A DNA stretch of 50,784 nt, from the NCBI GenBank assembly GCA_021783135.1, contig JAJXUE010000016.1, positions 1-50,784 on the forward strand. Direction: 5' to 3'. The translations under genes were made by a program, and so were the position numbers. The first letter of the stretch is position 1. Each line of letters starts with the position of its first letter. A model generated the notes under the pieces. That model made no database searches. It was not told the DNA's origin and saw only the letters and a list, made by a program, of their open reading frames with translations. Of this stretch, positions 10,676 through 50,784 are shown one piece after another. This stretch comes from Bacillota bacterium. Lineage in GTDB: Bacteria > Bacillota > Desulfitobacteriia > Desulfitobacteriales > JAJXUE01.

Positions 10676-10705
10676 ACGCAATGTCAGGACAAATTTATCG
10701 TTTTT

Positions 10706-11062: not shown

Positions 11063-11077
11063 GTTTGTTTACCTCCA

Positions 11078-11845: not shown

Positions 11846-12089
11846 CCTAGTCCTCCTTAAAAAATATCTACCAATATAATAGACATTATATTATATTATC
11901 TATAAGATTGCAACAGTGCGCAGACGATGACGGCCTAATCTTTGAGTGCATAATGCGTAGTAAAAACGTAAAACGGCAAATGAAAAATTAAGAGGAATTT
12001 ACCTTATATTGTTGAATTTTACAGACATGGTTACTTTTTCGCTTCCACACTAAGATAGATTAGAAAAAAGATTGTGGAGGATATGTAAA

Positions 12090-13967: not shown

Positions 13968-13986
13968 TTCGCAGCTGAAGGAGGGG

Positions 13987-14115
13987 ATGCATGTGCGTTT
14001 AATGGTCCTGTATTACCAACCAGCAGTCTACGTGCCTGACTACTATGGGGTATTAAAGTTTACTATTCCACTTAACCAATTAAGTGATATTATTAAGGCA
14101 AATCTGTTGGATTAA
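13987..14115 (+). CDS. small protein (40-42 residues) preceding the selenoglutaredoxin
   Basis: Short open frame with an unusually strong AAGGAGGGG ribosome site. The ATG at 13987 is very close to that site, so the GTG at 13993 (8 bases from AGGAGG) is the more likely start, giving about 40 residues beginning RLMVLYYQPAVYVPD. No known family recognised. It sits 19 bases after the kinase stop and 15 bases before the glutaredoxin start, so it is probably in the same transcript. The sequence is mixed hydrophobic/polar without a clear membrane helix. It may be a real small protein or a translated leader. Confidence 0.5.
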   Translation: MHVRLMVLYYQPAVYVPDYYGVLKFTIPLNQLSDIIKANLLD

Positions 14116-14130
14116 AAAGGGGGCATCGAC

Positions 14131-14469: not shown

Positions 14470-14471
14470 AC

Positions 14472-14873
14472 ATGACAATTGACAAAGCAGAAATATTGCG
14501 CGTATTTGCGCACGACTATTTAGCCCAATTGCTAGGTATTGAGATTGTGGATGTCGATTATGGCATCGCAAGGGTAAGGGGTATAGTTACTAAGCAAATG
14601 TTAAATGCTTTAGGCAAAACACATGGCGCAGCACTCTTTGCCATAGCCGATTTCGCGTTGGCGGTGGCCAGCAATTCCTATGGGGAACCCGCTGTATCAA
14701 CTAATGTCTCGATCAATTACCTGAAATCATCCACTCTGGGCACCGTGATTGAAGCAACTGCTACCGAAGAAAACAGAAGTCGCAAAATGGGACTGTACCG
14801 GATTGAAATCTGCGATGACAAAGCGCACAAGCTCGCCCTAGCGCACGGCGAGGTATACTTACTTGGTAAATAG
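14472..14873 (+). CDS. PaaI-type hotdog thioesterase
   Basis: 133 residues, the usual size for a single hotdog domain. The motif NALGKTHGAALFAIADFALA matches the PaaI group, where Asn, the HG pair and Asp of the long helix form the acyl-CoA site; STNVSINYLKSS is the following strand. These enzymes hydrolyse (hydroxy)phenylacetyl-CoA or other acyl-CoA esters as tetramers. It begins 2 bases after the glutaredoxin stop with no strong ribosome site of its own, so translation is probably coupled. The functional link to the selenoprotein is unclear. Confidence 0.85.
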   Translation: MTIDKAEILRVFAHDYLAQLLGIEIVDVDYGIARVRGIVTKQMLNALGKTHGAALFAIADFALAVASNSYGEPAVSTNVSINYLKSSTLGTVIEATATEENRSRKMGLYRIEICDDKAHKLALAHGEVYLLGK

Positions 14874-14937
14874 TAGGTAGTTGCATGTCATAGTTGACGC
14901 TAAACTGGATTAAATTAAATTGACGAAAGGCACGGCG

Positions 14938-37440: not shown

Positions 37441-38124
37441 CTATTCACGCGGTTCTTGATGTAACCACCGAATCAATTTAATAGCCTCTTTAACCGCATG
37501 AGATGCATCCTTGCCAAAACTGTCCGCTCCCCAGCGTGCGGCTAATGCCTGATTAATTGGAGCGCCTCCGATTAAAATTTTAACATTGGGAAAGCGTTCT
37601 TTCAGTTTACGGATTATATGTTTAATCTCGGGTGCCGTCGTGGACATCATGGATGAAAGACAAATTATGTCAGCATTGTGATTTTCTTGTGCTTCGATGA
37701 AATGTTCTAACGGAACATCTCGGCCCAAGTCCCAAACTGTAAAGCCAGCGATGTCAAACATCATACAGACAATATTTTTGCCAATGTCGTGAATGTCGCC
37801 CTCGACTACGCCAATAATAACTTGTCCCTTATCCTTACACAGAACTTCCTGTTCGTGTACATTTAGATGAGGACGCAACAATTCCAACCCACTGTACAAA
37901 GCATCGGCACACAAAAGCATTTCCGGTACGAAGTATTCGCCTATCTCATAGAGACGGCCTACTTCTTCCATCCCTGCCACTAGCCCTTCAAAAATACAAC
38001 GATAGACGTCGAACTGTCCTTCAAGTACAATTTGGCAGATTTTCTCGACTTCCTGAACATTAAAGCTAATTACTGCTTGCTGCAGCCAGGCAAGGATTTC
38101 TATCTCTTTTGGTGTTTTAACCAA
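37441..38124 (-). CDS. corrinoid-binding methyltransferase carrier protein (copy 1)
   Basis: 227 residues from the TTG at 38124, which has GGAGGG 6-8 bases upstream; the longer frame to 38175 starts inside a hairpin. An N-terminal helical cap domain (about 5-80, with the typical GLVAGMEEVGRLYEIGEYFVPEM in two blocks) and a C-terminal Rossmann cobalamin-binding domain with the lower-ligand motif DIHDIGKNIV (DxHxxG), SSMMSTT and GGAPI. Such proteins shuttle a methyl group on cobalt between two methyltransferases. It is strongly similar to the copy at 46733. It lies downstream of the triple-XRE regulator on the same strand. Confidence 0.93.
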   Translation of the reverse strand: MVKTPKEIEILAWLQQAVISFNVQEVEKICQIVLEGQFDVYRCIFEGLVAGMEEVGRLYEIGEYFVPEMLLCADALYSGLELLRPHLNVHEQEVLCKDKGQVIIGVVEGDIHDIGKNIVCMMFDIAGFTVWDLGRDVPLEHFIEAQENHNADIICLSSMMSTTAPEIKHIIRKLKERFPNVKILIGGAPINQALAARWGADSFGKDASHAVKEAIKLIRWLHQEPRE

Positions 38125-38150
38125 TGAAGGCTCCCTCCTATATGTCAAAG

Positions 38151-38197
38151 CTGAGGCTTTAATTTTATAGACCATGGACTATAAAATTAAGCCTCAG
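38151..38197 (-). promoter_or_regulatory. long hairpin between XRE regulator and corrinoid gene
   Basis: 19-bp stem with a single-base bulge (38151-38170 with 38179-38197) and 8-base loop. It is immediately after the regulator stop and ends 15 bases before the corrinoid ribosome site, so it is either the regulator's terminator or an element that adjusts expression of the corrinoid gene. No clear U-run. Confidence 0.55.
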
Positions 38198-38205
38198 ACA
38201 AAGTT

Positions 38206-38982
38206 TTAACGTAATAGGTTGCGGTGTCGCTTGAAAAACTCTATATAGTTAAAGAGATGTTTTACCTCGCCACTGTCAAAATCGCTGATTATACGTAGCA
38301 CTGATTGAACGGTAGAATCGCTGAGCAATTCCAGAACACCGGGACTCAAAGATGAAAGAAGATCCTCGAGATCCTCCTTTTCTATCCAGATATAAGAAAG
38401 GGATATGCCTATAGCTCCTGCTATCATTTCCAAAGTCTCAAAGGAAGGTGTCGTCAGTCCGTTTTCAATTTGACTTATCAAGCCTGGGGAAACTCCGGCT
38501 TTATCTGCTAAGGCAGTAACGGTCAAACCCTGAGCTTCGCGGATGGAACGAAGCCGTTCGCTAAGCTTATACTTCTTTTTCCCTTTACTAAGTAAATAAC
38601 TAATATTGACATTAAGGGCGTCACAGAGTTTTTCGATGTCTGATAAGCCCAACCTCCTGTTACCTTCCTCGTATTCGGTTATGGACTTAATTGGCAAATC
38701 GCTTATTTCCGCCAGTTCTTCGATTGTTAGACCGCGGGCGGTGCGTATCTGGTGAATCCGGTTGCCCTCGTCCTGAGACCTAGGCAAATTTTCTTCTACC
38801 AAGTAGGAAACTGGTACGTTGACAGCCACACTTAACCTATTCAGAACGTTAATAGACGCCTTCTTGACGCCACGTTCGATACTGCTTAAAAATGAAGGAG
38901 AAATACTGGCCTTTTCTGCAAGTTCAATTAGAGTTAAACCTCGTTCCTTACGGAACTCCCTGATTTTACTACCATAGCTCAT
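38206..38982 (-). CDS. regulator with three XRE helix-turn-helix domains
   Basis: About 258 residues from the ATG at 38982 (AAAGGTG upstream; a TTG at 38988 is also possible). Three consecutive Cro/CI domains: about 5-62 (LIELAEKASISPSFLSSIE), 77-133 (IEELAEISDLPIKSITEYE) and 145-200 (VTALADKAGVSPGLISQIE). The last ~50 residues are helical without a known domain. Tandem XRE arrays are uncommon; three domains could contact spaced half-sites. Its position at the left edge of the corrinoid cluster, 82 bases from copy 1, suggests cluster control (inference). Confidence 0.9.
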   Translation of the reverse strand: MSYGSKIREFRKERGLTLIELAEKASISPSFLSSIERGVKKASINVLNRLSVAVNVPVSYLVEENLPRSQDEGNRIHQIRTARGLTIEELAEISDLPIKSITEYEEGNRRLGLSDIEKLCDALNVNISYLLSKGKKKYKLSERLRSIREAQGLTVTALADKAGVSPGLISQIENGLTTPSFETLEMIAGAIGISLSYIWIEKEDLEDLLSSLSPGVLELLSDSTVQSVLRIISDFDSGEVKHLFNYIEFFKRHRNLLR

Positions 38983-39007
38983 GCCCAAACACCTTTCTAT
39001 GTACTAC

Positions 39008-39331
39008 TTAAGTGTTGAACTTTTGGATTTGAATTTTAACGTCTTTGGGAACTTCGGCACCAATCTCCACCTGAATAGCCTTGATGATAGCACATGGGAC
39101 AGGACAATCGGTATGTTTAATATGCTCACCTGCCAAGCGGTAAATTACAGATTCTGGAATCTTATTAAATATACCCTTTTTCCAGTCAAGCTCATCGATT
39201 GCTTTATCCATACTTCTTAACATGGTACAGGCAGAAATGATCCTGACTTTAACGGTAGTTTGTCCCACGGACTGCACTTGGATTACACTTGTAAAACCAC
39301 AGGCCCCAGCGAAGACCTTAACCTTTGTCAA
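39008..39331 (-). CDS. conserved cysteine-motif protein of the corrinoid cluster (copy A)
   Basis: 107 residues from a TTG start at 39331 with GGAGGA upstream. No named function recognised. Four cysteines are kept in both copies: GACGF, SACTM, and HTDCPVPCAI, in a mixed alpha/beta sequence (TKVKVFAGACGFTSVIQVQ). The DCPxPC motif suggests metal or Fe-S binding or a redox role. It is paralogous to the protein at 45396. It is cytoplasmic, with no signal or membrane helix. Placement next to corrinoid proteins in both cases supports a common process. Confidence 0.75.
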   Translation of the reverse strand: MTKVKVFAGACGFTSVIQVQSVGQTTVKVRIISACTMLRSMDKAIDELDWKKGIFNKIPESVIYRLAGEHIKHTDCPVPCAIIKAIQVEIGAEVPKDVKIQIQKFNT

Positions 39332-39544
39332 CTGGTGTTTCCTCCTCCATAACCTAGGGAAAATGTTAAACTATATTATACCATCAGAACCTCTGCTTTG
39401 CATACGTGAATTAGGTTGGAATCTGTTTTTGAGGTAAAGACGAGACCTGAAAGGGTAATAAAAAGAATTTTCGAAAAATTTTGACTTATTTCATCTATAA
39501 GATATATAATTAAGCAAAAACCATACGAAAGAGGTGTATTATTC

Positions 39545-40066
39545 ATGGCAATCCTGAATGGCATCGACTTAGAAGTGGGGAAAAAGATAATCGAGACCGT
39601 AAAGAATAGTCCGGAAGCCGGTAAAACTTTGTGGCGGTCAACAACGTTATGGCAAGGCGGTACGAAAGCTGAAACCACAATCAGGGGTTTTAAGGTTAAT
39701 ACGGACGAACCTACCAATTTAGGTGGTACTGATACAGCTCCTAACCCAGTGGAAATGGTGCTGGCTGCTTTAGGAGGGTGCTTAATTGTAGGGTACTCTT
39801 TAAATGCTGCTATGCTCGGGGTAGAACTCCAGAAGATTGAGATCTCACTGGAGGGAGATATCGATCTTCCGGGATTTTTCGGGTTGCCTTCCGACATACT
39901 CCCTGGTTATAGTTCCGTACGGGCTAGAGTTTTTATTAAAAGCGATGCTAGCCTGGATCAACTGGACGAGGTGCACAATAGGGTGTTAGCCACATCTCCG
40001 GTAGGCCTGACCTTAAGTAAGAATGTAAATTTGGAGATTGAACTGGTCAGGCGCAGAACTGCGTGA
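39545..40066 (+). CDS. OsmC/Ohr family protein
   Basis: 173 residues. The OsmC fold is shown by NPVEMVLAALGGCLIVGYSLNA in blocks (the first active-site cysteine in GGC, about 79) and the C-terminal LATSPVGLTLSKNVNLE, where the second family cysteine (usually CPV) is replaced by SPV. Without the second cysteine it cannot be a normal peroxidase; such variants are often annotated 'OsmC family' and may bind thiols or sulfur. AGAGGTG ribosome site. Single gene between two operons of the cluster. Confidence 0.85.
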   Translation: MAILNGIDLEVGKKIIETVKNSPEAGKTLWRSTTLWQGGTKAETTIRGFKVNTDEPTNLGGTDTAPNPVEMVLAALGGCLIVGYSLNAAMLGVELQKIEISLEGDIDLPGFFGLPSDILPGYSSVRARVFIKSDASLDQLDEVHNRVLATSPVGLTLSKNVNLEIELVRRRTA

Positions 40067-40155
40067 CAACGCTGAAGTTTTGGCTCATGCATAGCTCTTA
40101 ACTGGGTTGGTAGCAAAGTAGATAATTGAAAGCAAAGATAATGTAGATGTAGTAA

Positions 40156-40205
40156 TTTACACTTTTGTTTAGCGTGAGAACATTTAATTATTTCTCGCGC
40201 TAAAC
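40156..40205 (+). promoter_or_regulatory. shared 17-base element plus 14-bp hairpin upstream of the ABC importer
   Basis: TTTACACTTTTGTTTAG at 40156-40172 recurs exactly at 47602-47618 before the HdrE-like gene. Here it runs into a 14-bp hairpin (40167-40180 with 40192-40205, one G-U pair), which may end the osmC transcript or sit in the importer leader. Confidence 0.45.
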
Positions 40206-40264
40206 AACACAATTTTATGAAGTACTAATTTGTTACAGTAAAATAACTAGATATGAGGTGTAAG

Positions 40265-41278
40265 ATGATAAAAATGAAGCATATTTTTAAAGTTGTAGTA
40301 CCAGCACTGCTAACATTAACCTTATTTGGTCTAACAGGGTGTGGGAGCGGTCCCACTCCTTCCGGTAGCAATGGTGGAGCAGGAAACAAGCCAACTCTTA
40401 CAAAGTTAACGGTTGGATATCCTAGTGGAACCATGAGCAAGTCGCTATTTTTGCAAACAGGAATCGATACGGGGATTTTTACTAAATATGGTTTAGAGGT
40501 CCAGCCGAAGGCTTATACTGTAGGCGGACAGGTTGTTGAGGATTTGGCGGGAAACAATCTGGACTTTGGGATGGCAGGCCCTTCAGCCTCGCTAGATGGG
40601 GCTGCTAAGGGGGCTGATCTTAAGATTATTGCCTCTGCGATGCAGAATGATTGCCCCTTGGTGGCAAGGCAGGAAATTACCTCAGTAAAGGAGCTAAATG
40701 GCAAAAAAGTAGGTACTCCCGGGGTAAGTAGTATCCAAGAGACTATGCTCGATTATCTTGAAAGCCAACAGGGCATTAAAACCATACACGTTTATGCCAA
40801 CGCCGCCAATCTAGTTCAACTACTGCAAAAAGGAGAAATCGATGCAATTGTAGCTTGGGAACCTTTAGGCGCTCAGGCTGTGGCAAAAGTAGGCGCCCAC
40901 TATTTACTGAATACAATTATCCCTGGCGCTGAGGCTGAAGATTTCACCGTAACGGGTAAACTTTTCCGGGAAAACCCCAACACAGTTGTTCAGTTTCTGA
41001 AAGCAGCTGAAGCTATTAAACAGTATCTTAATACTCATTTAACAGAAAGAGAGCAGGTTGCAGCAGGTTCAACCGGATTACCAGAAAGTGTTATTGCTCA
41101 AGCCGTTCAGAGCTCCCACAATTTTATCACCCCAATGCAACTTAACGTGAACAGTATAAAGTTAAGCGCCATGCAAGATATTGCTTCCGGCAAGCTCACA
41201 GGAGTAAAGCAAAGCGGTCTGGATGCTTTCTTGGCAAAAAATATAGATACTACCCTGCTACAGAAGGCACTTCAATAA
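40265..41278 (+). CDS. ABC importer substrate-binding lipoprotein (NitT/TauT/SsuA type)
   Basis: 337 residues from the ATG at 40265 (GAGGTG upstream; ATG 40253 and 40274 are alternatives). Lipoprotein signal ending LTLFGLTGC. The mature domain is of the SsuA/NMT1 kind: LTVGYPSGTMSKSLFLQTGI, GLEVQPKAYTVGGQVVEDLA, and IDAIVAWEPLGAQAV. Family ligands include alkanesulfonates, taurine, nitrate, thiamine precursors and aromatic acids. It is the first gene of an importer operon (24 bases to permease) inside the corrinoid cluster, so it may deliver the methylated substrate; this is inference. Confidence 0.88.
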   Translation: MIKMKHIFKVVVPALLTLTLFGLTGCGSGPTPSGSNGGAGNKPTLTKLTVGYPSGTMSKSLFLQTGIDTGIFTKYGLEVQPKAYTVGGQVVEDLAGNNLDFGMAGPSASLDGAAKGADLKIIASAMQNDCPLVARQEITSVKELNGKKVGTPGVSSIQETMLDYLESQQGIKTIHVYANAANLVQLLQKGEIDAIVAWEPLGAQAVAKVGAHYLLNTIIPGAEAEDFTVTGKLFRENPNTVVQFLKAAEAIKQYLNTHLTEREQVAAGSTGLPESVIAQAVQSSHNFITPMQLNVNSIKLSAMQDIASGKLTGVKQSGLDAFLAKNIDTTLLQKALQ

Positions 41279-41302
41279 CTATCAGGAAAGGTACTATGTA
41301 TT

Positions 41303-42151
41303 ATGGCCAGAGTTGCACAGCTCCAAGGCAGGCAAGAACGAAATTTCACCGGGTTAAATACGAAACCAAAGGGTATATTGACATTTGTTTCTGCAGTAAT
41401 TGTGTTTTTAGCAAAAATTTTAGGGGTAATCTTGCTTTGGCAGGGATTTACTCTTATAGTACATTCGATTTTTATTCCCACTCCAATTCAGGTCTGGACT
41501 ACTTTCTGGCGACTCACTCTAAAGGGAGATGTTCAAGGTTACACTTTGCCATTTGAGGCTTGGACTAGTTTAATGCGCGTGTTGCGAGGTTTCGCTCTAG
41601 CTATCATCGTCGGGATTCCGGTGGGGATACTTTTTGGGTTATCGAATAGGACCTATCAATGGACCAAGTTCCTAGTTGAACCTATACGTTTTATTCCACC
41701 CCTGGCATGGGTACCACTGGTAATCATATTTTTGCATGGGGAAAGCCGTTATACCTTCATTATTTGGATCGGGGCGGTGTTTCCTATCATCTATACGACT
41801 ATGTCAGGTGTAAAGGTGCTCGACAATAATTTATGGGAAGTTGGTAGGGTGTTAGGAGCCAGCAAATGGCAATTGGTAACGAAGATTGCTATACCGGCAG
41901 CTTTACCCCATATGTTTTCCGGCGCAAGGCTTGGACTTGGTATCGGCTGGGCCTGCATCGTCGCGGCGGAAATGGTGGGTGGAGGCAACGGTGGTCTGGG
42001 AAGCCTAATTCTCAATTACGGCCAGCTCCTGCAAATTGACGCCGTAGTAGCCAGCATGATTGTCATTGGGATGTTAGGCTACGCTTTAAATGAGATTTTC
42101 GTCATAGCTGAAAAGAAACTGTTTCCTTGGCAAAAGGATGTTAAGTTTTAA
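41303..42151 (+). CDS. ABC importer permease (SsuC/TauC type)
   Basis: 282 residues with about six membrane helices. The EAA loop EVGRVLGASKWQLVTKIAIPAALP (in two blocks around residue 175-198) docks on the ATPase; GIGWACIVAAEMVGG and LGSLILN are family landmarks. GGAAAGG ribosome site before the ATG at 41303. Second gene of the importer operon. Confidence 0.9.
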   Translation: MARVAQLQGRQERNFTGLNTKPKGILTFVSAVIVFLAKILGVILLWQGFTLIVHSIFIPTPIQVWTTFWRLTLKGDVQGYTLPFEAWTSLMRVLRGFALAIIVGIPVGILFGLSNRTYQWTKFLVEPIRFIPPLAWVPLVIIFLHGESRYTFIIWIGAVFPIIYTTMSGVKVLDNNLWEVGRVLGASKWQLVTKIAIPAALPHMFSGARLGLGIGWACIVAAEMVGGGNGGLGSLILNYGQLLQIDAVVASMIVIGMLGYALNEIFVIAEKKLFPWQKDVKF

Positions 42152-42167
42152 GCAAAGAGGGTATAGT

Positions 42168-42929
42168 ATGGCTGAAATACTCATCCACAATTTATCTAAA
42201 ACCTACAGGGCATCTAATGGGGGACTGGTAAACGCGTTGGAAGGAATTGACTTGGAAGTAAAAGATGGCGAGTTTGTCTGCTTGGTGGGAAAATCAGGTT
42301 GTGGCAAAACAACGTTATTGCGTATTATAGCCGGCTTGGAGCAACCGAGTGCAGGTGAAGTTCTGATTGATAAAAAATTAGTAGGAAGTCCAGATCCACT
42401 TGTAGGTGTGGTTTTTCAAGAGGACAGACTTTTTCCGTGGCGCACTGTGCGACGAAATGTAGAACTTGGCCTGGAACTTCGTAAAATAGCGAGGAATTCA
42501 CGAAAAAAGGCAACGGAAACTTACCTTAGACTTGTAGGCCTAGAGGGTTTTGCAGATGCTTTACCACATGAACTTTCGGGAGGCATGAAACAACGAGCTG
42601 CTATTGCCCGTGTACTAGCTAATGAACCGGGAGTTATTCTCATGGACGAGCCTTTTGGTGCCTTAGACGCCCAGACTCGTAACCAAATGCAGGAGGAACT
42701 GCTTGAAATCTGGTCAAAACACTTTCGTACGGTGCTGTTTGTTACGCATAGTGTTGACGAGGCGGTAATGTTAGCTGACCGTATCTTAGTTATTACACCG
42801 CACCCAGGACATATCCAGTGTGAATATCGACTAACTATGCCTCGGCCAAGAGAGAGGCTGTCGCCCGAGTTGATAGAGTTTAGACAAAATATTCTGGCGG
42901 ACCTAAATACGGACGTGCACAGCACGTGA
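42168..42929 (+). CDS. ABC importer ATPase (SsuB/TauB type)
   Basis: 253 residues from the ATG at 42168, preceded by AGAGGG; the longer frame overlaps the permease end and has no ribosome site. Walker A GKSGCGKTT, Q-loop FQEDRLFPW, signature LSGGMKQRAAIARVL, Walker B VILMDEPFGALD, H-loop VTHSVDEA. The DRLFPW and HSVDEA sequences are typical of the nitrate/sulfonate/taurine group. Last gene of the three-gene importer operon; it converges with the MtaA-like gene 31 bases further on. Confidence 0.92.
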   Translation: MAEILIHNLSKTYRASNGGLVNALEGIDLEVKDGEFVCLVGKSGCGKTTLLRIIAGLEQPSAGEVLIDKKLVGSPDPLVGVVFQEDRLFPWRTVRRNVELGLELRKIARNSRKKATETYLRLVGLEGFADALPHELSGGMKQRAAIARVLANEPGVILMDEPFGALDAQTRNQMQEELLEIWSKHFRTVLFVTHSVDEAVMLADRILVITPHPGHIQCEYRLTMPRPRERLSPELIEFRQNILADLNTDVHST

Positions 42930-42959
42930 TATTGCGGAATCCACTCAGCTAGTTTATAT

Positions 42960-44060
42960 TTATGCCTGTTTTTGTCCGTATTTTTTTCCGGCTTGGACCA
43001 TGACAATCAGGTTTCTGCTGGGGGTTCTAGGGGCAATACCACAGGCAGTAGTGAGAATATCTGTTCCGGCTTTAATCCGCTCCACTACACATTGTTCGAT
43101 TTCTGTCTTGCTACCAAAGAGTAAAGTACTATTGACATCAATGTTTCCTACTGCAGCAGCTTTGTTTCCTAGGACCTGTTTGAGATGTTGCATATCGACC
43201 TGCGAATCAACACTAACCCCGTTACTCACTTCGGCCATCTGGCTTAGAATCATTTGGCTGTTGCCACAAATATGGAGAATGGTCGGGACATTAAGCTGTT
43301 CTGTAATCCGCCTGGTGTAAAGTTTGGCAAACTCTCCATAGTATTTTGGGCTAACCAAGTCAGGTGATGCGGTGGGATCGATCAAAACAAGGGTGTCGGC
43401 ACCGGCAGCTACCAAGGCCTTAGCGTAAATTAAGCAGGTTTGATAACATTTTTCGAGCAGTTCATGTGCAAACGCCGGATCTTTAATTAGATCACGCATA
43501 AATTTGTCCACGCCGCGAATCTGGCCGGCAAGCGTAAAGGGAGCAACGGTTGCCGCAAAAATCGGGATTTCGTTTCCTACTTTTTTGATGGCGTCACCTA
43601 ACATTTGTACAGCCTGAATTACTGCAGGCATTCTTCCAGTTTTACTAGGATCGGGAATGCTAAGCCTAGCTAGATGCTCTTTAGCGTTAACAGGGGTTAG
43701 GCGCACTGAAGGCTGAACGTCAATACCGTTGCCGGGACCCGTGACATAGTCTAAAGTGCACCCTAACGCTTCGCTTTCAACGTTGAGGTCGAAAGGGACC
43801 CGAACACTTTCGAAGCCGATTATCGAATGAGCTGCGTAAGCCAACCGGGCCATAGAATCAGCTTCGCGATGTGCTTTAGGCCAAAATGATCCGCATGCTT
43901 GCATTAACTCCACAGTACCAGTTTGCAAGGGCTGCGCAAGTGGAATTCGGTCAATTTTTTGCAGGTAGAGGGCTGCTCTGAGTCGTTCTTTTGGAGTCAT
44001 TTCGTCTCTACAGTAATTTTTTAAAGTTTCCGGATGCAAAATATCTGATAGAGTTGTCAT
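42960..44060 (-). CDS. MtaA/UroD-family corrinoid:thiol (or tetrahydrofolate) methyltransferase
   Basis: 366 residues of the uroporphyrinogen-decarboxylase fold, MtaA/CmuA branch, which takes the methyl group from a corrinoid protein onto an acceptor. The N-terminal MTPKERLRAALYLQKIDRIPL is standard. Zinc ligands are seen as LHICGNS (His and Cys) and the C-terminal TTACGIAPRTP (Cys). VDSQVDMQHLKQVLG and AAVGNIDVNSTLLFG are the other conserved blocks. In methanogens the acceptor is coenzyme M; Clostridia generally lack it, so another acceptor is likely. AAAGGAG site, 10 bases before the ATG. It is divergent from the CMD gene. Confidence 0.9.
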   Translation of the reverse strand: MTTLSDILHPETLKNYCRDEMTPKERLRAALYLQKIDRIPLAQPLQTGTVELMQACGSFWPKAHREADSMARLAYAAHSIIGFESVRVPFDLNVESEALGCTLDYVTGPGNGIDVQPSVRLTPVNAKEHLARLSIPDPSKTGRMPAVIQAVQMLGDAIKKVGNEIPIFAATVAPFTLAGQIRGVDKFMRDLIKDPAFAHELLEKCYQTCLIYAKALVAAGADTLVLIDPTASPDLVSPKYYGEFAKLYTRRITEQLNVPTILHICGNSQMILSQMAEVSNGVSVDSQVDMQHLKQVLGNKAAAVGNIDVNSTLLFGSKTEIEQCVVERIKAGTDILTTACGIAPRTPSRNLIVMVQAGKKYGQKQA

Positions 44061-44256
44061 CGAAATTTATGCTCCTTTCTTACGGCTATGAGTTGCTATA
44101 GATTGGCTAAAAGCTATTTTGGGAAATCTAAATCATAGAGCTACTTTATATAAGCTAGTATATATCTACATCTATATCTGTGTATATATGAAAGTATACT
44201 TCCAAGAGTGTTTCCTTAAATTGAGCTGGAATGTAGACCCGGTTTTTATTACCACG

Positions 44257-44292
44257 AGAGAACTGGGGCTCCGCTGGTAATTGAAATAAGTT
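44257..44292 (+). promoter_or_regulatory. conserved leader element of CMD copy A
   Basis: AGAGAACTGGGGCTCC, then CTG and AATTGAAATAA, nearly identical to 49825-49860 upstream of CMD copy B. It lies 24 bases before the start. A promoter part, operator or RNA element retained after duplication. The other part of 44061-44256 is AT-rich with no gene seen. Confidence 0.55.
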
Positions 44293-44315
44293 AATTTTAC
44301 AAGGAGGATACTTAG

Positions 44316-44759
44316 ATGAGTGAAGACAAAATGACTCCTCAAGAAACTAACACCTATATGATGGAAAAAATGCTTTTTGTTCCTAGAATGTTTAAAGTTA
44401 TTAATGAACTCAATCCAGAGGCTGGAAAAACATTTGCTGACTTTTACAATTCTCTTTGGAAAGATGGTGCCCTTTCCCGCAAGGTCAAAGAGTTGATATT
44501 TATGGCTGGTGGGGTAGCTTATAAATCTCCACGTTGCATAATTCATGTTCTTCCGGCAGTTAATGCAGGAGCAACCGTTGCAGAAGTATTTGAGGCAGCT
44601 TCTATCGGTATGATTCTGGGCGGTTTTGTTCCAGGTGGACCTGGAATTCCCTATGCATTTGAATATGCTGCTAAGTGCGTAGAATTGGCAACGAAAATAA
44701 TCGCTGGAGAGGAATGGGAATACTTACCGAAACCTCAGTGGGACTACGGAATCGGTTAA
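44316..44759 (+). CDS. carboxymuconolactone decarboxylase/AhpD-fold protein (copy A)
   Basis: 147 residues. The helical CMD core is clear: DGALSRKVKELIFMAGGVAY, SPRCIIHVLPAVNAGAT, and EVFEAASIGMILGG. The usual AhpD CxxC is reduced to a lone Cys followed by His (RCIIH), so a peroxidase role is unlikely; lactone decarboxylation or an as yet unknown reaction is possible. The C-terminus EYLPKPQWDYGIG is distinctive. Strong AAGGAGG site. It is ~95% identical to copy B at 49903 (8 differences by eye). Followed by a terminator also shared with copy B. Confidence 0.85.
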   Translation: MSEDKMTPQETNTYMMEKMLFVPRMFKVINELNPEAGKTFADFYNSLWKDGALSRKVKELIFMAGGVAYKSPRCIIHVLPAVNAGATVAEVFEAASIGMILGGFVPGGPGIPYAFEYAAKCVELATKIIAGEEWEYLPKPQWDYGIG

Positions 44760-44778
44760 TATGGTGGAGAAAAAGAAT

Positions 44779-44801
44779 GGGGTATCCCCAGTACCCCTTT
44801 T
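44779..44801 (+). terminator. terminator of CMD copy A
   Basis: GGGGTA (44779-44784) pairs with TACCCC (44792-44797), 7-base loop, then TTTT. The same GGGGTATCCCCAGTACCCC sequence is at 50367-50385 after copy B. Confidence 0.8.
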
Positions 44802-44874
44802 CTTCTTACGTGAGCAAATTCGCTAAGGATTAAAATTACAAAAAATAAAATAGATAGGCATGTGAGGTAAGGTT

Positions 44875-45252
44875 ATGAATTATGAACCGGGTATGCTACT
44901 GAGTTTTAAATGGGAAGATGATTCATTTGGAATTTGTAAAGTCATTAAACTAACAGAAACAAAGAAAGATCCTATAATCAGCATTTGTACTTACTCAAAT
45001 TATCTTAACCCTATTCCGGAAAGTATAGACCAAGTTGAGTTGAAACCAATGATAGTGCATATGCCGATGCTTGAATCTAGGCTATCAGATTGTGTTGCGG
45101 TGGGCAAAGCTGATATTAGACCCCGCGAGACTGAGGCTTACGAAACATGGTATGAGGCATGGAAAATTGGACGAGCAGGAATTCTTACTAAATCTATTAG
45201 TGAATCAGTCAGCCAAATTTTAGAGGCCATGGCCGAAGTAGATAAGCCTTGA
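44875..45252 (+). CDS. hypothetical protein of the corrinoid cluster
   Basis: 125 residues, not recognised. The start (YEPGMLLSFKWEDDSFGICKV) looks like a beta-rich small domain; the middle has RPRETEAYETWYEAWK and the end is helical (SISESVSQILEAMAEV). Cytoplasmic, acidic. GAGGTAAGG lies before the ATG. It lies between CMD copy A and the cysteine-motif copy B, in the same direction, and could be co-transcribed with the following genes. Confidence 0.7.
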   Translation: MNYEPGMLLSFKWEDDSFGICKVIKLTETKKDPIISICTYSNYLNPIPESIDQVELKPMIVHMPMLESRLSDCVAVGKADIRPRETEAYETWYEAWKIGRAGILTKSISESVSQILEAMAEVDKP

Positions 45253-45395
45253 GTTAGTTATGCATTTGGTTGCAATGTGGCACAAAATGGCATAAATAAT
45301 TAGGTTGGCTGACAGAAAATCGGATATAGAATTGATAAGTTATTAAACAAGAGGTTAATATGGAAAAGCTTCCAGAAATGGAGGAGGAGACACCT

Positions 45396-45737
45396 TTGAC
45401 GAAGGTTAAGGTCTGTGCCGGGGCCTGTGGTTTTAGTAGCGTAATAAAGGTGCAGTCATGCGGGCCGAATACCGTTAAGGTCGAAATCCTTTCCGCTTGT
45501 ACAATGCTTAGAAGCATGAACAAAGATATGGGAGTGATGGACTGGACTAAAGGTATTTTCAATAAAATCAATGAGTCCATGATTTACCAATCGGCAGGCA
45601 AACACCTTAAGCACACTGATTGCCCTATACCTTGTGCCATCACCAAAGCTATTCAAGTAGAGATTGGCGCAGCTGTTTCAAAAGACGTAAAAATTCGCAT
45701 CGTAAAATTAGATAGTGAACTTGAACTTGTAGACTGA
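45396..45737 (+). CDS. conserved cysteine-motif protein of the corrinoid cluster (copy B)
   Basis: 113 residues from the TTG at 45396, which has GGAGGAGG upstream, exactly as in copy A; the ATG at 45360 has no ribosome site. The same four cysteines as copy A (GACGF, SACTM, DCPIPCAI), plus two more (VCAG and SCGPN). About two thirds of the residues match copy A. Function unknown. It is followed after 47 bases by the CobW-like GTPase, so it may depend on a metal delivered by that protein (inference). Confidence 0.75.
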   Translation: MTKVKVCAGACGFSSVIKVQSCGPNTVKVEILSACTMLRSMNKDMGVMDWTKGIFNKINESMIYQSAGKHLKHTDCPIPCAITKAIQVEIGAAVSKDVKIRIVKLDSELELVD

Positions 45738-45784
45738 TTAGCGTAGCTTGACCCGGCTTGCGTTTAGAAGGGAGAATTCCAATC

Positions 45785-46678
45785 TTGAAAGTTACAATCA
45801 TTTGCGGTTTCCTTGGCGCTGGTAAGACAACCTTTCTAAAACACCTTTTGCAAGAAAGCTCCGCAAGAACAGCCGTGTTAGTCAACGAATTTGGTGAGGT
45901 AGGTATCGATGGTACTTTGATTGCGGCGTCTTCATCTAACGTCGATATGATCGAGTTGCCCAATGGCTGCATTTGCTGTTCGCTTAAAAGCAGCCTCGTT
46001 GAAGCGATCCTTGAAATTAATCAAAGCCTGCATCCAGACCGATTAATTATTGAACCTTCGGGCCTGTCCGCCCCCTCCTCTATCGTCATTACCTTAAAAG
46101 ATCAGGCAATAGCAGACTTTGTTGAATTGACGGCTGTTATTGGTATCATCGACGGTCCGTCCTTTTTAGAGGACTGGGATTCGGAAAACTTCGGTAGTTT
46201 CTTTCGAGATCAAGTTACCAACTCTGATTTGCTCTTAATCAATAAAACTGATCTAATGACCGATGAATTACTGCAGAGGACCATTGTCCAAGTAGCAATC
46301 CTTAATCCTGTTGCGCCAATTATTCCCACTCAATTCTGCAACGCAGAGCTTCCCGAGGTTACTGGACATCATTTTGGCGAACATCATCACTTCCGAGCTG
46401 ATCTGGATTCCTTATCCCTGTCTATTTCTGAAGAGGTTTTTTATGCCGTATTATCTGACTTACCAAGGCGGCTGGAAGAGGGTTATTTGGGAAGAATAGT
46501 GAGAGCCAAAGGCATTTTACTTACCGAACAGGGTTGGATAAATTTCGATTATGTGAATGGAAGATGGAGTATGGCTCCTTATTCAGGTTTAATAGAAACA
46601 GGTAAAGCCGTATTTATTGGTAAGGCTTTGCAAAAGTCTTTATTAGCAGAGTTATTTAGTGCTGTGGACATAGGTTAA
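45785..46678 (+). CDS. CobW/COG0523-type metal-chaperone GTPase
   Basis: About 297 residues from the TTG at 45785 with AAGGGAG upstream. G3E GTPase motifs: Walker A GFLGAGKTT, the metal site GCICC (CxCC), Walker B-like IEPSGLS, base recognition NKTD. A His-rich loop (TGHHFGEHHHF, about residue 200) is typical of zinc, cobalt or nickel chaperones. The C-terminal CobW_C-like domain is short. In a corrinoid cluster it may load metal into the zinc methyltransferase or help corrinoid handling; relatives in the same family serve nitrile hydratase and cobalamin synthesis. It is followed by corrinoid copy 2 after 54 bases. Confidence 0.87.
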   Translation: MKVTIICGFLGAGKTTFLKHLLQESSARTAVLVNEFGEVGIDGTLIAASSSNVDMIELPNGCICCSLKSSLVEAILEINQSLHPDRLIIEPSGLSAPSSIVITLKDQAIADFVELTAVIGIIDGPSFLEDWDSENFGSFFRDQVTNSDLLLINKTDLMTDELLQRTIVQVAILNPVAPIIPTQFCNAELPEVTGHHFGEHHHFRADLDSLSLSISEEVFYAVLSDLPRRLEEGYLGRIVRAKGILLTEQGWINFDYVNGRWSMAPYSGLIETGKAVFIGKALQKSLLAELFSAVDIG

Positions 46679-46732
46679 ATGGTTATTGCCCTTGGAAATA
46701 GCGGCGATAGTGCAATCGCTTGAGAAAGGGGG

Positions 46733-47422
46733 ATGCTAGTCGCTTTGGTGCAGGAACTGGAGGAAAATGAAATCTTGTCTCGTTTACGTCAAGCTGTAAT
46801 TTGTTATGACACTATTGGGGTTAAGGAAATTTGCCAAGATGTTATTGACGGTCAACACGATATTTACCGCTGTATTTTTGATGGGCTAGTGGCCGGGATG
46901 GAGGAAGTCGGGAGGCTTTACGAGGTAGGGGAATATTATGTGCCGGAAATGTTATTATGTGCCGACAGTTTGTATGCCGGGCTGGAATTGTTGCGACCTC
47001 AGCTGCAGTTGCAAAAACAAAAAATCCTGTTTGAAGAAAAGGGTCAAGTTATTATTGGCGTAGTTTCTGGCGATATTCACGATATTGGCAAAAATATTGT
47101 ACGGATGATGTTCGATATTGCGGGTTTCAAAGTCTGGGATTTGGGACGGGATGTTCCATTGGAACGGTTCATCAGGGAACAAGAAAAGCATCATGCCGAT
47201 ATTATCTGCCTTTCATCCATGATGTCCACAACAGCTGTGGAAATAAAACATGTAATCCGTAAATTGAAAGAACGTTTTCCTGATGTTAAGTTCATGGTAG
47301 GAGGTGCACCTCTGAATGGATCAATAGCGCATCGATGGGGTGCGGATGGTTTTGCATGTGATGCTGCGCACGCAGTTAATGAAGCAATAAAAATAATCGG
47401 ATATATTAAGGAAATAATTTAA
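46733..47422 (+). CDS. corrinoid-binding methyltransferase carrier protein (copy 2)
   Basis: 229 residues, with the same two-domain layout as copy 1: the helical cap (FDGLVAGMEEVGRLYEVGEYY) and the cobalamin domain with SGDIHDIGKNIV, SSMMSTT and GGAPL. Roughly 70% identical to copy 1 by eye. The AAAGGGGG ribosome site is almost touching the ATG at 46733, so a downstream TTG at 46745 or GTG at 46748 may be used. Last gene of the stretch that begins with the cysteine-motif protein and CobW. Confidence 0.93.
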   Translation: MLVALVQELEENEILSRLRQAVICYDTIGVKEICQDVIDGQHDIYRCIFDGLVAGMEEVGRLYEVGEYYVPEMLLCADSLYAGLELLRPQLQLQKQKILFEEKGQVIIGVVSGDIHDIGKNIVRMMFDIAGFKVWDLGRDVPLERFIREQEKHHADIICLSSMMSTTAVEIKHVIRKLKERFPDVKFMVGGAPLNGSIAHRWGADGFACDAAHAVNEAIKIIGYIKEII

Positions 47423-47720
47423 GGTGGAAAACGTTATATTTGTCGGGTGGCAGACCATAACGAAAGGGAAGAGTCCGAAAAAACATATATATATACCATT
47501 AAACTCGATTTTCCTACTGTTAAACCGCAAACTATATACTTAAACAGTAGTATCTGTTAGAATAAAATAAATATTCTGACAAATAGTACAGGCATTTATT
47601 TTTTACACTTTTGTTTAGTTCAGGAGAATTAAAATTACTCCATCCCTGTTCTGAGGATAATTTTATGGACTATTTTACACGAATTTTGTAAAAGAGCGGG
47701 GGAAAGCGGGGGAAAGTTTC
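47423..47720. other. intergenic region with shared 17-base element
   Basis: 298 bases without a gene. It holds TTTACACTTTTGTTTAG at 47602-47618 (identical to 40156-40172), AT-rich sequence with an ATATATATAT run near 47488, and a doubled GCGGGGGAAA just before the HdrE-like start, of which GGGGGAA may be the ribosome site. Confidence 0.6.
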
Positions 47721-48509
47721 ATGTTATTTAATCACGGACTCGCCTATTTTAAGCCTTGGAATTTTTTTTGGACAGTGCAAACGATTGCGCTTGCTATTTG
47801 TATCATAGGTATATTATTCCACTTCATTTTCATTTTTAAAGGCCGCCAACGTTCGCTTAATCAAACAATCAATCCTTTGGCGATGCTTAAGAGGTTCTTC
47901 TTGGAAGTGCTTTTTCAAAGTCATTTACTACAAAGTGATAAAAAACGTTGGCTAATGCATTTTTCCATCTTTGTCGGATTTATTGGTTTGTCGTTTTTAT
48001 CTTTCTTACAAATCAGCAATATCGTTTTGTTGGATCAACATTTTAACTTTGAATTATATGCCTGGAAAGGTTTTGTGGGAGATCTTTTTGGTCTATTAAT
48101 GCTTGTAGGATTACTTATCGCATTTCATCGCCGTTTTGTCCAGAGGTTACCTCATCTGCGCCGCCTGGCTAATGACAAGACAGCTATCCTATTGCTTCTA
48201 AGTATAGTTATTACCGGTTTTATGCTTCGCTCTCTACCAATGGCACTAGCGCCATTAGATCAGAGCCAAAAGAGTTCTTTTTTCTCCCTAATCCTGGCAA
48301 GTTTATTTAAAGTGTTAATACCGTACATAAGTGTTTCTTTATCTTTTTGGCAAAACGTTTTGGCTGTATTATGGATTTTTCATAGTCTTTTGACTGCCGT
48401 ATTTCTCATATATTTTCCTTTTAGCAAGTTTATTCATATTATCTTTACACCAATTGAACTTTTATTAAATGCGTCTGAAGAGGATCAGCGGAGGGATATA
48501 TATGCATAA
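47721..48509 (+). CDS. HdrE/NarI-like membrane b-type cytochrome subunit
   Basis: 262 residues with five to six membrane helices. Histidines within helices (LMHFSIFVGF, AFHRRF, WIFHSLLTAVF, and HIIFTPIELL) match heme-ligand positions of NarI/DsrM/HdrE-type quinol-linked cytochromes. It overlaps the HdrD-like gene by 8 bases, so the two proteins form a complex, probably with the Fe-S protein on the inside face. HdrE normally carries electrons between the quinone or methanophenazine pool and HdrD. Confidence 0.85.
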   Translation: MLFNHGLAYFKPWNFFWTVQTIALAICIIGILFHFIFIFKGRQRSLNQTINPLAMLKRFFLEVLFQSHLLQSDKKRWLMHFSIFVGFIGLSFLSFLQISNIVLLDQHFNFELYAWKGFVGDLFGLLMLVGLLIAFHRRFVQRLPHLRRLANDKTAILLLLSIVITGFMLRSLPMALAPLDQSQKSSFFSLILASLFKVLIPYISVSLSFWQNVLAVLWIFHSLLTAVFLIYFPFSKFIHIIFTPIELLLNASEEDQRRDIYA

Positions 48510-49743
48510 GAAATTACAACCTATTTTATCCGCTTTAAGTGGACGTCAAATTTTAGAGGCTGAAGCTTGTACCGGTTGTGGTGAATGTGTAAAGTTATGT
48601 CCTGTTTACGCAATTGAACCGGAAGAACGGTTAACTGCCAGAGGAAAAATTGACTTATTCAAAAATTTACTGCGTAACGAAAAACCTCCCTTGAGCTTCT
48701 TACTTGGCAACCGCAGTAACCCTAACTTTGGCATCTTTCAGGATGCACTCTGGAAATGTACAGTATGTGGGCAATGCCATTTTGTCTGCCCGGCTAGGAT
48801 AGATACTCCAAACCTATGGGAAGCGCTGCGGGGAATGATGGGTGTTGGCGGATACGGCCCACCGCAGGAACAACAAGAATATCTGCAAATTATTAAAACC
48901 CACGATAATTCTTTTAATCAACCTCAAGCAATACGCCGCACTTGGCTAGAGCAAGCGTATGCTGAAGGACAAATTATGGAACCGGTGCGAAATATTCTAG
49001 AACATCCTGCGCCCGTTTTATATTTTATGGGTTGTACTGCTACCTATGACGTTACTATCCGCCAAGTAGCCTTGGATACAATAAATGTTTTACAAAAGGC
49101 TGGCATCGATTTTGCGGTTTTAGGTGAGAATGAGCTCTGTTGTAGCGGTAAGATGAAGCGAATGGGAGAGGTGCAATTTAATGAGCGTGCGAGAGCTAAC
49201 ATTGAGCAATTTAATGCGTTAGGTATAAAAACCTTGGTAGCCTCCTGCGCAGGTTGCTATAAAACGATCAATGAAGATTACCCAAAAATTGCTCCGCTTA
49301 ATTTTGAAGTATTGCATGTCTCTGAAATGGTTCATCGACTGCTTCAACAAAAATTAATTGCTTTTCAACGTTCTTTAGAGGTAACTACCACCTATCATGA
49401 TCCTTGCCATCTGGGTCGCAACTGTGGTGTTTATGAAGCTCCGCGTGAAGTGTTAAAAGCTATACCCGGTTTACAATTAGTTGAGATGGAACGTAACCGC
49501 CAAAAGGCTAAATGCTGTGGCGGCGGCGGAGGTCTGAAGCTGGTTGATCACGACCTACAGATAAAGGCATCCGCTGCGCGATTGGAAGATGCCGAAGCAA
49601 TAGGAGCAGCCATGCTGACAACGCCTTGTCCAACCTGTTACCTTTCGCTCAAAAAGGGTCAGGAATTTAGTAATTCTCCTGTTGAGTTGCAGCATTTTAT
49701 GAGTATTGTTCGTAAAGCACTTGATTTAATAGGCCCTGCGTAA
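48502..49743 (+). CDS. HdrD-like (Fe-S)-binding heterodisulfide reductase-type subunit
   Basis: 413 residues from the ATG at 48502 with GGAGGG upstream. Two 4Fe-4S ferredoxin sites at the N-terminus (ACTGCGECVKLCPVY and CTVCGQCHFVCP) are followed by two CCG domains: the first with MGCTATYDV and CCSGKMKRMG, the second with YHDPCHLGRNCG and CCGGGGGLK, ending TPCPTCYLSL. The CCG cysteines bind the noncubane clusters of HdrB/HdrD. Without CoM/CoB the substrate is probably another disulfide or the corrinoid protein (inference). Glycolate-oxidase-type Fe-S subunits are the nearest alternative call. Confidence 0.88.
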   Translation: MHKKLQPILSALSGRQILEAEACTGCGECVKLCPVYAIEPEERLTARGKIDLFKNLLRNEKPPLSFLLGNRSNPNFGIFQDALWKCTVCGQCHFVCPARIDTPNLWEALRGMMGVGGYGPPQEQQEYLQIIKTHDNSFNQPQAIRRTWLEQAYAEGQIMEPVRNILEHPAPVLYFMGCTATYDVTIRQVALDTINVLQKAGIDFAVLGENELCCSGKMKRMGEVQFNERARANIEQFNALGIKTLVASCAGCYKTINEDYPKIAPLNFEVLHVSEMVHRLLQQKLIAFQRSLEVTTTYHDPCHLGRNCGVYEAPREVLKAIPGLQLVEMERNRQKAKCCGGGGGLKLVDHDLQIKASAARLEDAEAIGAAMLTTPCPTCYLSLKKGQEFSNSPVELQHFMSIVRKALDLIGPA

Positions 49744-49824
49744 TGCTAATTTCAAATAAATATGGCCATACGCTGAATATAAATGCTAGCCTAAACCGTT
49801 TAAAACATGGTTTCCATGAACAGA

Positions 49825-49860
49825 AGAGAACTGGGGCTCCTCTGTAAATTGAAATAAATT
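49825..49860 (+). promoter_or_regulatory. conserved leader element of CMD copy B
   Basis: Counterpart of 44257-44292: AGAGAACTGGGGCTCC, CTG, AATTGAAATAA. The distance to the start is 42 bases instead of 24. The gap 49744-49902 holds nothing else. Confidence 0.55.
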
Positions 49861-49902
49861 CGATTTTTCCAAAAACTGTTGATTTTAGAGGAGGATATTG
49901 AA

Positions 49903-50346
49903 ATGAGTGAAACCAAAATGACTCCCGAAGAAACTAACACTTACATGATGGAGAAAATGTTATTTGTACCTAGGATGTTTAAAGTTATTAATGAACTCAA
50001 TCCGGAAGCAGGTCAAACCTTTGCTGACTTTTACAATACTCTTTGGAAAGACGGTGCTCTTTCCCGCAAGGTCAAAGAATTGATATTCATGGCCGGTGGT
50101 GTAGCTTATAAATCTCCACGCTGCATAATTCATGTTCTTCCGGCTTGTAGGGCAGGAGCAACGGTAGAAGAAGTGTTTGAGGCCGCTTCTATCGGCATGA
50201 TTCTGGGTGGATTTGTTCCCGGCGGGCCTGGTATTCCATATGCATTTGAATATGCTGCTAAATGTGTAGAGTTGGCAACGAAAATAATAGCCGGAGAGGA
50301 ATGGGAGTATTTGCCAAGGCCTCAGTGGGACTACGGAATCGGTTAA
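49903..50346 (+). CDS. carboxymuconolactone decarboxylase/AhpD-fold protein (copy B)
   Basis: 147 residues from the ATG at 49903 with GAGGAGG upstream; the upstream TTG at 49879 precedes that site and is not the start. Nearly identical to copy A. The differences include ACR in place of AVN after HVLP, which adds a cysteine seven residues after RCIIH, and RPQ for KPQ near the end. That extra cysteine is the only change likely to alter chemistry. It is followed by the shared terminator type and then by corrinoid copy 3. Confidence 0.87.
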   Translation: MSETKMTPEETNTYMMEKMLFVPRMFKVINELNPEAGQTFADFYNTLWKDGALSRKVKELIFMAGGVAYKSPRCIIHVLPACRAGATVEEVFEAASIGMILGGFVPGGPGIPYAFEYAAKCVELATKIIAGEEWEYLPRPQWDYGIG

Positions 50347-50366
50347 TATGGTAAAAAGAGTAGATT

Positions 50367-50395
50367 GGGGTATCCCCAGTACCCCTCTTTATTTC
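50367..50395 (+). terminator. terminator of CMD copy B
   Basis: GGGGTA (50367-50372) with TACCCC (50380-50385) and a T-rich tail; the stem-loop sequence is identical to that after copy A. Confidence 0.8.
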
Positions 50396-50597
50396 TTATA
50401 TTATTGAAGTTAGAGTACTTTGGAAAATAGCTAAAAAACAAGGCTGGAGCAAATCCAGTTGCTTGAGTATAAGTAGTCCCTATTTTGCGTATTCAGTTGC
50501 TTATGTTCTAATATTTAGGGATAGAACATTTGAATTCTTCCTTGGCTCTACGGAGCAATTCGCTTCTCAAATATTATAAATGAAGGGGTTGTTAATA
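50396..50597. other. leader of corrinoid copy 3
   Basis: About 200 bases without a gene. A 7-bp stem (50504-50510 with 50522-50528) lies 70 bases before the start. No cobalamin riboswitch B12-box was recognised. Confidence 0.5.
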
Positions 50598-50784
50598 ATG
50601 TCCCAAGAAATTCTTGATAAATTAAAACAAGGTGTAATCGATTACGATGAGGATGCAGTTATTGCTGCGGCCAATGAAGCCTTAGCCCAAAACGTGGATG
50701 CTCATGCAGCAATATTTGATGGACTGGTGCCTGGCATGGTGGAAGTAGGCCGTTTGTACGAAGAACAAGAGTACTTTGTGCCGG
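50598..50784 (+). CDS. corrinoid-binding carrier protein (copy 3, 3' partial)
   Basis: The first ~62 residues of a third corrinoid protein, cut by the window end. ATG at 50598 with GAAGGGG upstream. The cap-domain sequence FDGLVPGMVEVGRLYEEQEYFVP is unmistakable for the MtaC/MtbC family. It is clearly less similar to copies 1 and 2 than they are to each other (ILDKLKQGVIDYDED at the start), so it probably partners a different methyltransferase that lies to the right of the window. Confidence 0.88.
   Translation, partial: MSQEILDKLKQGVIDYDEDAVIAAANEALAQNVDAHAAIFDGLVPGMVEVGRLYEEQEYFVP

Follow-up and report, generated by a model that had tools for sequence, protein, structure and literature searches.

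The DNA analyzed here is a stretch of 50,784 nucleotides from a Bacillota bacterium (GCA_021783135.1, contig JAJXUE010000016.1; hereafter the window), which represents one complete contig, C46, of a 2.71 Mb genome spread over 67 contigs. From position 37441 to its end, the window carries a group of corrinoid methyltransferase genes, which we infer to be about half of a broken operon. The window proteins were scanned with Pfam and NCBIfam profiles. The group begins on the minus strand with a corrinoid protein composed of a cap and a B12-binding domain (MtC, 37441–38175; PF02310, 86 bits; PF02607, 62 bits), which scored 178 bits against TIGR02370, under the cut-off of 215; the DxHxxG motif was kept in all 65 MtC proteins examined. 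Next on this strand are a regulator with three Cro/C1-type helix–turn–helix (HTH) domains (38206–38988; three stretches matching PF01381, HTH_3), whose homologues adjoin the operon in relatives, and a DUF6951 protein (39008–39331; PF22263, 112.7 bits), the cysteine-motif protein of an earlier note on this DNA. A plus-strand importer comprises an SsuA-like substrate-binding protein (SBP, 40253–41278; PF09084; TIGR01728, 122.9 bits, under the cut-off of 163.5), a permease (41303–42151; PF00528, 82.9 bits), and an ATPase (42138–42929; PF00005, 116.6 bits). An MtaA-like methyltransferase of the UroD_A type lies at 42960–44060 on the minus strand (TIGR01463, 320 bits, cut-off 235). Further along, the plus strand encodes a CMD-family protein (44316–44759; PF02627, 34 bits), a second DUF6951 protein (45360–45737; PF22263, 107.8 bits), a CobW/COG0523-type GTPase (45758–46678; PF02492, 158 bits; PF07683, 26 bits), a second corrinoid protein (46733–47422; PF02310, 79 bits; PF02607, 61 bits), an HdrE-like, NarI-like membrane cytochrome subunit (47721–48509; PF02665, 34.7 bits, cut-off 22.9), an HdrD-like Fe-S protein with two CCG domains (48469–49743; PF02754, 103.7 bits), and a second CMD-family protein (49879–50346; PF02627, 34 bits), 95% identical to the first. 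The NarI-like and CCG reading frames overlap, and the CCG gene may start at an internal Met near 48502.

The remaining products are an OsmC-like protein (39545–40066, plus strand; PF02566, 67.6 bits) and a 125-amino-acid open reading frame between the CMD and DUF6951 genes (44875–45252, plus strand), for which we found no Pfam or NCBIfam family and no relative in the loci searched. A link to the selenoprotein Sao transporter, raised by weak NCBIfam matches to SaoP and SaoX, was dropped, as the scores were far under cut-off. These assignments bear out the inventory of the earlier note, which had listed corrinoid proteins, an MtaA-like enzyme, an Hdr-like pair, a COG0523 GTPase, CMD, cysteine-motif and OsmC proteins, an importer, and a triple-HTH regulator; the third corrinoid gene is partial.

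The right edge of the window is a contig end inside this third corrinoid gene and not a biological boundary. The 5′ part of the gene occupies 50599–50784 (plus strand), where it is cut by the contig end, and its 3′ part probably opens contig C15. Within C15, a corrinoid gene matched the final 181 nt of the window over its 5′ part (99.4% identity), and the 3′ end of this internal gene matched the opening 127 nt of C15 (96.9% identity). In the simple reading of these matches, the assembly would have broken at a near-identical copy and divided the third corrinoid gene, with about 350 bases missing, and the METHYLTRANSFERASES are probably UroD enzymes located on C15, beyond the break. After the corrinoid 3′ end, C15 encodes a RACE corrinoid activase (RACo domains, 309 and 186 bits), UroD_B, UroD_A, MtrH, and a QueG-like Fe-S protein, and then a MoxR/VWA pair (named by eye), a DUF2284 protein, the third UroD lineage UroD_C, the internal corrinoid gene, a second QueG-like gene, and DUF6951. 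The MoxR-like/VWA-like pair beside UroD_C (L046:3608-9201 on C15) was also observed in G277 and G308 (L098, L114). The window's genome further holds a separate corrinoid system on contig C57 (L050, G000:C57:88000-107999, about 8145–15480), containing two corrinoid proteins, a 454-aa UroD-like protein, a pterin-binding methyltransferase, and a RACE protein.

Among the 16 products of 37441–50346, no Pfam match to MttB, MtaB, or MtmB was found, in agreement with the earlier note; a genome-wide search for these families was not made. That note had also regarded the substrate methyltransferase (MT1) as missing, with the CMD and cysteine-motif proteins as its substitutes. This idea was not supported: UroD_B, UroD_C, RACE, and MtrH lie on C15, and in relatives the operon itself includes UroD_B, RACE, and MtrH. 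We rejected the absence of MT1 as a genuine trait, since the break falls within a corrinoid gene that has a near-identical copy on C15, and C15 also encodes UroD methyltransferases. The earlier note had named a classical MT1 of known substrate just past the edge as one observation that would count against its proposal; none turned up, the methyltransferases there being of the UroD type.

Homologues of DUF6951 were present in 52 of 398 genomes of the window's phylum. We compared the neighborhoods of these matches and of the corrinoid genes in the window's genome (60 stretches, then 20 more). Some of the phylum neighborhoods kept the order MtC, RACE, UroD_B, MtrH, UroD_A, SBP, permease, ATPase, CMD, QueG-like, DUF6951, CobW, NarI, and CCG, and HTH, MtC, and DUF6951 genes were often close to this conserved run. 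The Bacillota genome G099 carries the whole operon in two tandem copies (C17; L118, L119). A named genome collection, scanned with five CMD proteins, yielded 51 loci, mostly from Nitrospirota; the other taxa were Thermincola and other Bacillota, Desulfobacterales, Archaeoglobi JdFR-42, Hydrothermarchaeum, another euryarchaeon, Chloroflexi, and Nitrospinota. The Nitrospirota gene order is UroD_B, CMD, MtrH, UroD_A, MtC, QueG-like, RACE, DUF6951, sometimes FolD, NarI, and CCG. The archaeal, Chloroflexi, and Desulfobacterales stretches contain parts of the operon only. Because the gene set recurs in conserved order in distant genomes, it does not reflect chance. CMD, DUF6951, CobW, and the HdrED-like pair all belong to the conserved content of a single operon. 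The CMD, cysteine-motif, and HdrDE-like genes do travel with the corrinoid genes, in support of the earlier note, which had placed the CMD and cysteine-motif proteins always beside them. We regard the operon and its component families, as described here, as nearly certain.

DUF6951 by itself proved too broad to serve as a specific marker, as it occurs not only in the 52 genomes above but also in the phylum of JdFR-42, where 60 of 294 genomes have it. Only a few of 30 short DUF6951 neighborhoods from the latter phylum (L241–L270) showed strong matches to other operon genes. Genomes of this phylum hold up to six DUF6951 matches each, and in L246 and L248 DUF6951 lies near a small protein that appears CMD-like by eye.

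Five UroD_A proteins (window, C15, Thermincola L067, and Nitrospirota L128 and L157) were scanned against NCBIfam, and all passed the methylcobalamin:coenzyme M (CoM) methyltransferase subfamily NF004889 (340, 261, 283, 281, and 267 bits; cut-off 244). None reached the MtaA equivalog NF040654 (305, 246, 265, 245, and 243 bits; cut-off 400). UroD_B scored 166–173 bits on NF004889, beneath its cut-off, and likewise did not reach that of the MtaA equivalog. The nearest solved relative of the window's UroD_A was MtaA (4ay7). UroD_A (51 sequences) and UroD_B (47) formed separate clades, with support of 0.997 and 0.998, respectively. The zinc motif was conserved in both: HxC in 51/51 and the later Cys in 50/51 for UroD_A, and each in 47/47 for UroD_B. 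According to Kountz and Balskus 2023 (PMC10418091), this His-Cys-Cys motif marks S/Se methyltransferases. Judged from its sequence, the window's UroD_A is probably a methylcobamide:thiol (CoM) methyltransferase, and we consider thiol-type methyl transfer by the system to be very likely.

The MtrH protein scored above the MtrH-family cut-off and is related to MtgA (149–150 bits, cut-off 550). The QueG-like protein resembled epoxyqueuosine reductase and reductive dehalogenases, but only in its Fe-S part. The glycine betaine system MtgBCA shares with the present operon an MtrH-family folate methyltransferase related to MtgA, together with related corrinoid proteins, but the enzymes here are of the UroD type, and no MttB-family match was found among the scanned products of the region.

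The zinc motif also bears on whether the operon could encode a counterpart of mec/cdm/MtoB, acting on haloalkanes or in O-demethylation, which would draw on the same MtaA/CmuA superfamily and a similar three-part logic (PMC9768040, PMC13222342). The mec cassette for dichloromethane resembles the present region in combining an MtaA/CmuA-family methyltransferase, a corrinoid protein, a folate methyltransferase, and reactivation genes in Bacillota (PMC9768040). However, His-Cys-Cys is intact in both UroD_A and UroD_B, whereas CdmB works without zinc (PMC13222342) and O-methyltransferases replace the Cys ligands (PMC10418091). Moreover, the mec cassette has a PocR-domain two-component regulator and a cation transporter beside MecE (PMC9768040), in place of which the present region has the triple-HTH regulator, the sulfonate-type importer, CMD, DUF6951, and the HdrED-like pair. 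Neither a two-component regulator nor a cation transporter of the mec kind was found among the 16 window products scanned, and the annotated operon genes included no two-component genes of that kind. A mec/cdm/MtoB-type function appears very improbable.

CMD and DUF6951 were analyzed by alignment and structure prediction. The window CMD was 60–84% identical to 25 aligned homologues, in an alignment that took in 26 of 31 non-redundant CMD proteins, and an S.RC..H motif was present in 58 of 62 CMD proteins. Its AlphaFold model (pLDDT 76) had CMD-family chains as the top structural matches, indicating a CMD/AhpD-like fold. VIA-align also paired CMD with the helical cap found in corrinoid proteins (7xcn, MttC; Z 10.3, root-mean-square deviation 2.7, 78 aligned); this likeness was set aside, as helical bundles attain such Z by chance. 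For DUF6951 (pLDDT 93.9), the top 15 Foldseek matches were mostly IscU, SufU, or SufE/CsdE-type chains (E 0.02 to about 1), and VIA-align gave a Z of about 6 (6.3) against this fold, with unrelated ligase domains tied. Three Cys residues were conserved in 77/77 DUF6951 homologues and a His in 74/77. As a lead, DUF6951 is possibly an IscU/SufE-like sulfur carrier; its predicted fold points to such a protein, although the second aligner was equivocal. CMD and UroD_B are neighbors in the majority of Nitrospirota operons and at two Desulfobacterales loci, an arrangement that would suit CMD or cysteine-motif proteins acting as new substrate methyltransferases in place of an absent MT1. With UroD-type methyltransferases on C15 and in the relatives' operons, a fold of CMD that is CMD/AhpD-like only, and a DUF6951 that may be IscU-like, we give this explanation hardly any credence.

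The NarI/CCG pair has the composition of HdrED, namely a NarI-type membrane subunit (PF02665) and an Fe-S subunit with two CCG domains (PF02754). Two CCG motifs were found in 33 of 36 homologues of the CCG protein, which matched an Fe-S reductase and HdrB chains among solved structures. Scanned against NCBIfam, the pair reached no family cut-off, the best score being that for TfrB (184 of 385 bits). The earlier note had proposed an undescribed methyl-transfer system tied to the membrane electron pool; such a corrinoid system is supported, and the membrane tie is plausible.

CoM is 2-mercaptoethanesulfonate, a sulfonate, and is best known as a cofactor of methane-making microbes. Downstream of CCG, the Nitrospirota operons encode cysteate synthase (TIGR03844, 468 bits, cut-off 325) and the sulfopyruvate decarboxylase ComDE (TIGR03845, 185 bits, cut-off 148). 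Cysteate synthase was included in 17 of the 24 stretches with a UroD gene and CCG; the remaining seven comprise four from Bacillota, one each from Desulfobacterales and an archaeon, and one Nitrospirota fragment. In an even draw of 295 Nitrospirota genomes, CMD was found in 43, cysteate synthase in 42, and both in 41, of which 28 had the two genes on one contig, 8.0–11.5 kb apart. The Fisher value for this co-occurrence (1e-46) overstates independence since the genomes are related, and the shared operon is the stronger argument. Hydrothermarchaeum likewise carries cysteate synthase and ComDE beside the NarI/CCG pair. The earlier note had made no remark on a CoM link.

MCR alpha was missing in 37 of the 38 genomes tested, and MCR as a missing partner was rejected. 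The sole genome with MCR alpha, Archaeoglobi JdFR-42 (L151 / G417), has two copies and a CMD homologue, with neither cysteate synthase nor ComDE.

The Bacillota differ in this respect. Cysteate synthase was found in none of 18 Bacillota genomes tested and ComDE in none of 11, the window's included in both cases, and the window's genome had no cysteate synthase, ComDE, ComA, or COG1900 protein at the thresholds used. The importer SBP was present in all 11 Bacillota genomes of the compared set with UroD_B or CMD, nine of which had all three importer genes; the window's SBP, SsuA-like but scoring 53 bits with the relatives' model, was counted by hand among the 11. Another named Bacillota locus, L126, likewise carries the SBP, and no non-Bacillota stretch had one above threshold. 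CoM being a sulfonate, its uptake, or that of methyl-CoM, would make up for the absent biosynthesis.

Based on these sequence comparisons, we lean, with little better than even confidence, toward an MCR-free, CoM-linked corrinoid methyl-transfer pathway that would connect a methyl-thiol, CoM, and tetrahydrofolate. CoM is likely to be the thiol, in view of the subfamily and operon data. The most likely direction, at about even odds, would be demethylation of a methylated thiol, feeding methyl-tetrahydrofolate. The outer substrate and the direction are guesses, while the steps that depend on family membership are well supported. In the proposed scheme, RACE would reduce the corrinoid of MtC, and UroD_B, paired with CMD, would take the methyl group from an S-methyl or Se-methyl compound. 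UroD_A would move the methyl group between the corrinoid protein and CoM, and MtrH would move it between the corrinoid protein and tetrahydrofolate, so that UroD_A and MtrH together might form a soluble counterpart of the methanogen Mtr. The HdrED-like pair would reduce or oxidize a CoM disulfide against the membrane quinone pool. The Bacillota, without cysteate synthase and ComDE, would import CoM or methyl-CoM through the Ssu-like transporter.

Several observations weigh against this pathway. Its main weakness is that a COG1900-type CoM synthase (PF01837), considered as the missing step, was found in no tested genome having cysteate synthase and ComDE; the last CoM step thus lacks an assigned enzyme, and the product may be another sulfonate. 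Cysteate synthase was missing in 8 of 35 genomes reached through named loci, including those of Desulfobacterales, JdFR-42, and Chloroflexi, and its co-occurrence with CMD was measured within one phylum, on genomes that are not independent. Nitrospinota CMD genes (L168–L174, 55–57% identity) have no recognized corrinoid genes beside them, yet occur with CoM-pathway genes: cysteate synthase matches were found in all five Nitrospinota-type genomes tested (G428–G432), four of them above cut-off. CMD may therefore belong to CoM rather than to methyl transfer. The importer SBPs score best with the aliphatic-sulfonate family yet stay under its cut-off, and the C46–C15 join is an inferred one. ComA was found in 8 of 11 Bacillota, and in G118 it is followed by an open reading frame read by eye as ComB-like. 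In B. subtilis, the ComA product is spore sulfolactate. ComA was considered as an alternative start of CoM synthesis in Bacillota and rejected; the B. subtilis control genome also has ComA, and the window's genome and G002 do not.

The missing CoM synthase invites a different explanation, in which the Nitrospirota sulfonate route does not make CoM but another compound (sulfoacetaldehyde, for instance, or one of its derivatives), the corrinoid system methylates or demethylates that compound or a derived thiol, and the Bacillota importer takes up the same compound. Cysteate synthase and ComDE do lead to sulfoacetaldehyde, and the known CoM synthase family was not found. On the other hand, UroD_A belongs to the CoM methyltransferase subfamily, and an HdrED-like pair suits a thiol/disulfide couple; we consider a non-CoM product doubtful. 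A more far-reaching form of the CoM-linked pathway is conceivable at a similarly low probability: a bacterial CoM-based one-carbon pathway without MCR, in which MtrH, MtC, and UroD_A would form a soluble, Mtr-like bridge from methyl-tetrahydrofolate to methyl-CoM and HdrED would couple the CoM disulfide to respiration, while any of CMD, the QueG-like protein, and DUF6951 would perform undescribed chemistry on CoM or methyl-CoM, either as a new CoM synthase or in a step that forms or cleaves methyl-CoM.

Among described systems, the nearest are the type 1 mlp clusters (Kountz and Balskus 2023, PMC10418091), which share the His-Cys-Cys zinc motif and an occurrence in anaerobes, many of them Bacillota. 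The operon could be of this kind, with the sulfonate genes serving an unrelated neighboring function. In line with the mlp definition, at least two MtaA-like UroD proteins, a corrinoid protein, and RACE occur together in one cluster, both in the relatives' operons and on C15, and ClMlp2 acts on selenide (PMC10418091). However, the same definition bars a tetrahydrofolate methylase within 20 kb, whereas an MtrH-family protein sits in the operon here. The operon differs from these clusters further in adding, besides the MtrH-like folate methyltransferase, CMD, QueG-like, DUF6951, and the HdrED-like pair, plus either genes for CoM synthesis or an importer of the sulfonate type. An mlp-type function would also leave the tight tie to cysteate synthase and ComDE unexplained, and we consider it unlikely.

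The CoM-linked pathway finds its closest counterpart in the methyl-CoM branch of methylotrophic methanogenesis (MtaA/MtbA, Mtr, and HdrED), with which the operon shares the UroD_A subfamily, an MtrH-family protein, an HdrED-like pair, and, in Nitrospirota, CoM-biosynthesis genes. Unlike that branch, it occurs mostly in bacteria, with a soluble MtrH-like protein instead of the Mtr complex and with no MCR in 37 of the 38 genomes. Methanogens use CoM as their methyl carrier, and among bacteria the cofactor is known for its part in alkene metabolism (PMC12068725). The literature search, which included passages of three papers on Nitrospirota, Nitrospinota, and Hydrothermarchaeota and left subscription literature mostly uncovered, found no account of this operon. 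The system is a variant of corrinoid methyltransferase systems, and its tie to CoM, if confirmed, would be new for MCR-free bacteria. If the proposed pathway is correct, CoM-based one-carbon metabolism would extend to bacteria without MCR, and the CMD, DUF6951, and QueG-like proteins, whose roles lack assignment, would gain a biological context.

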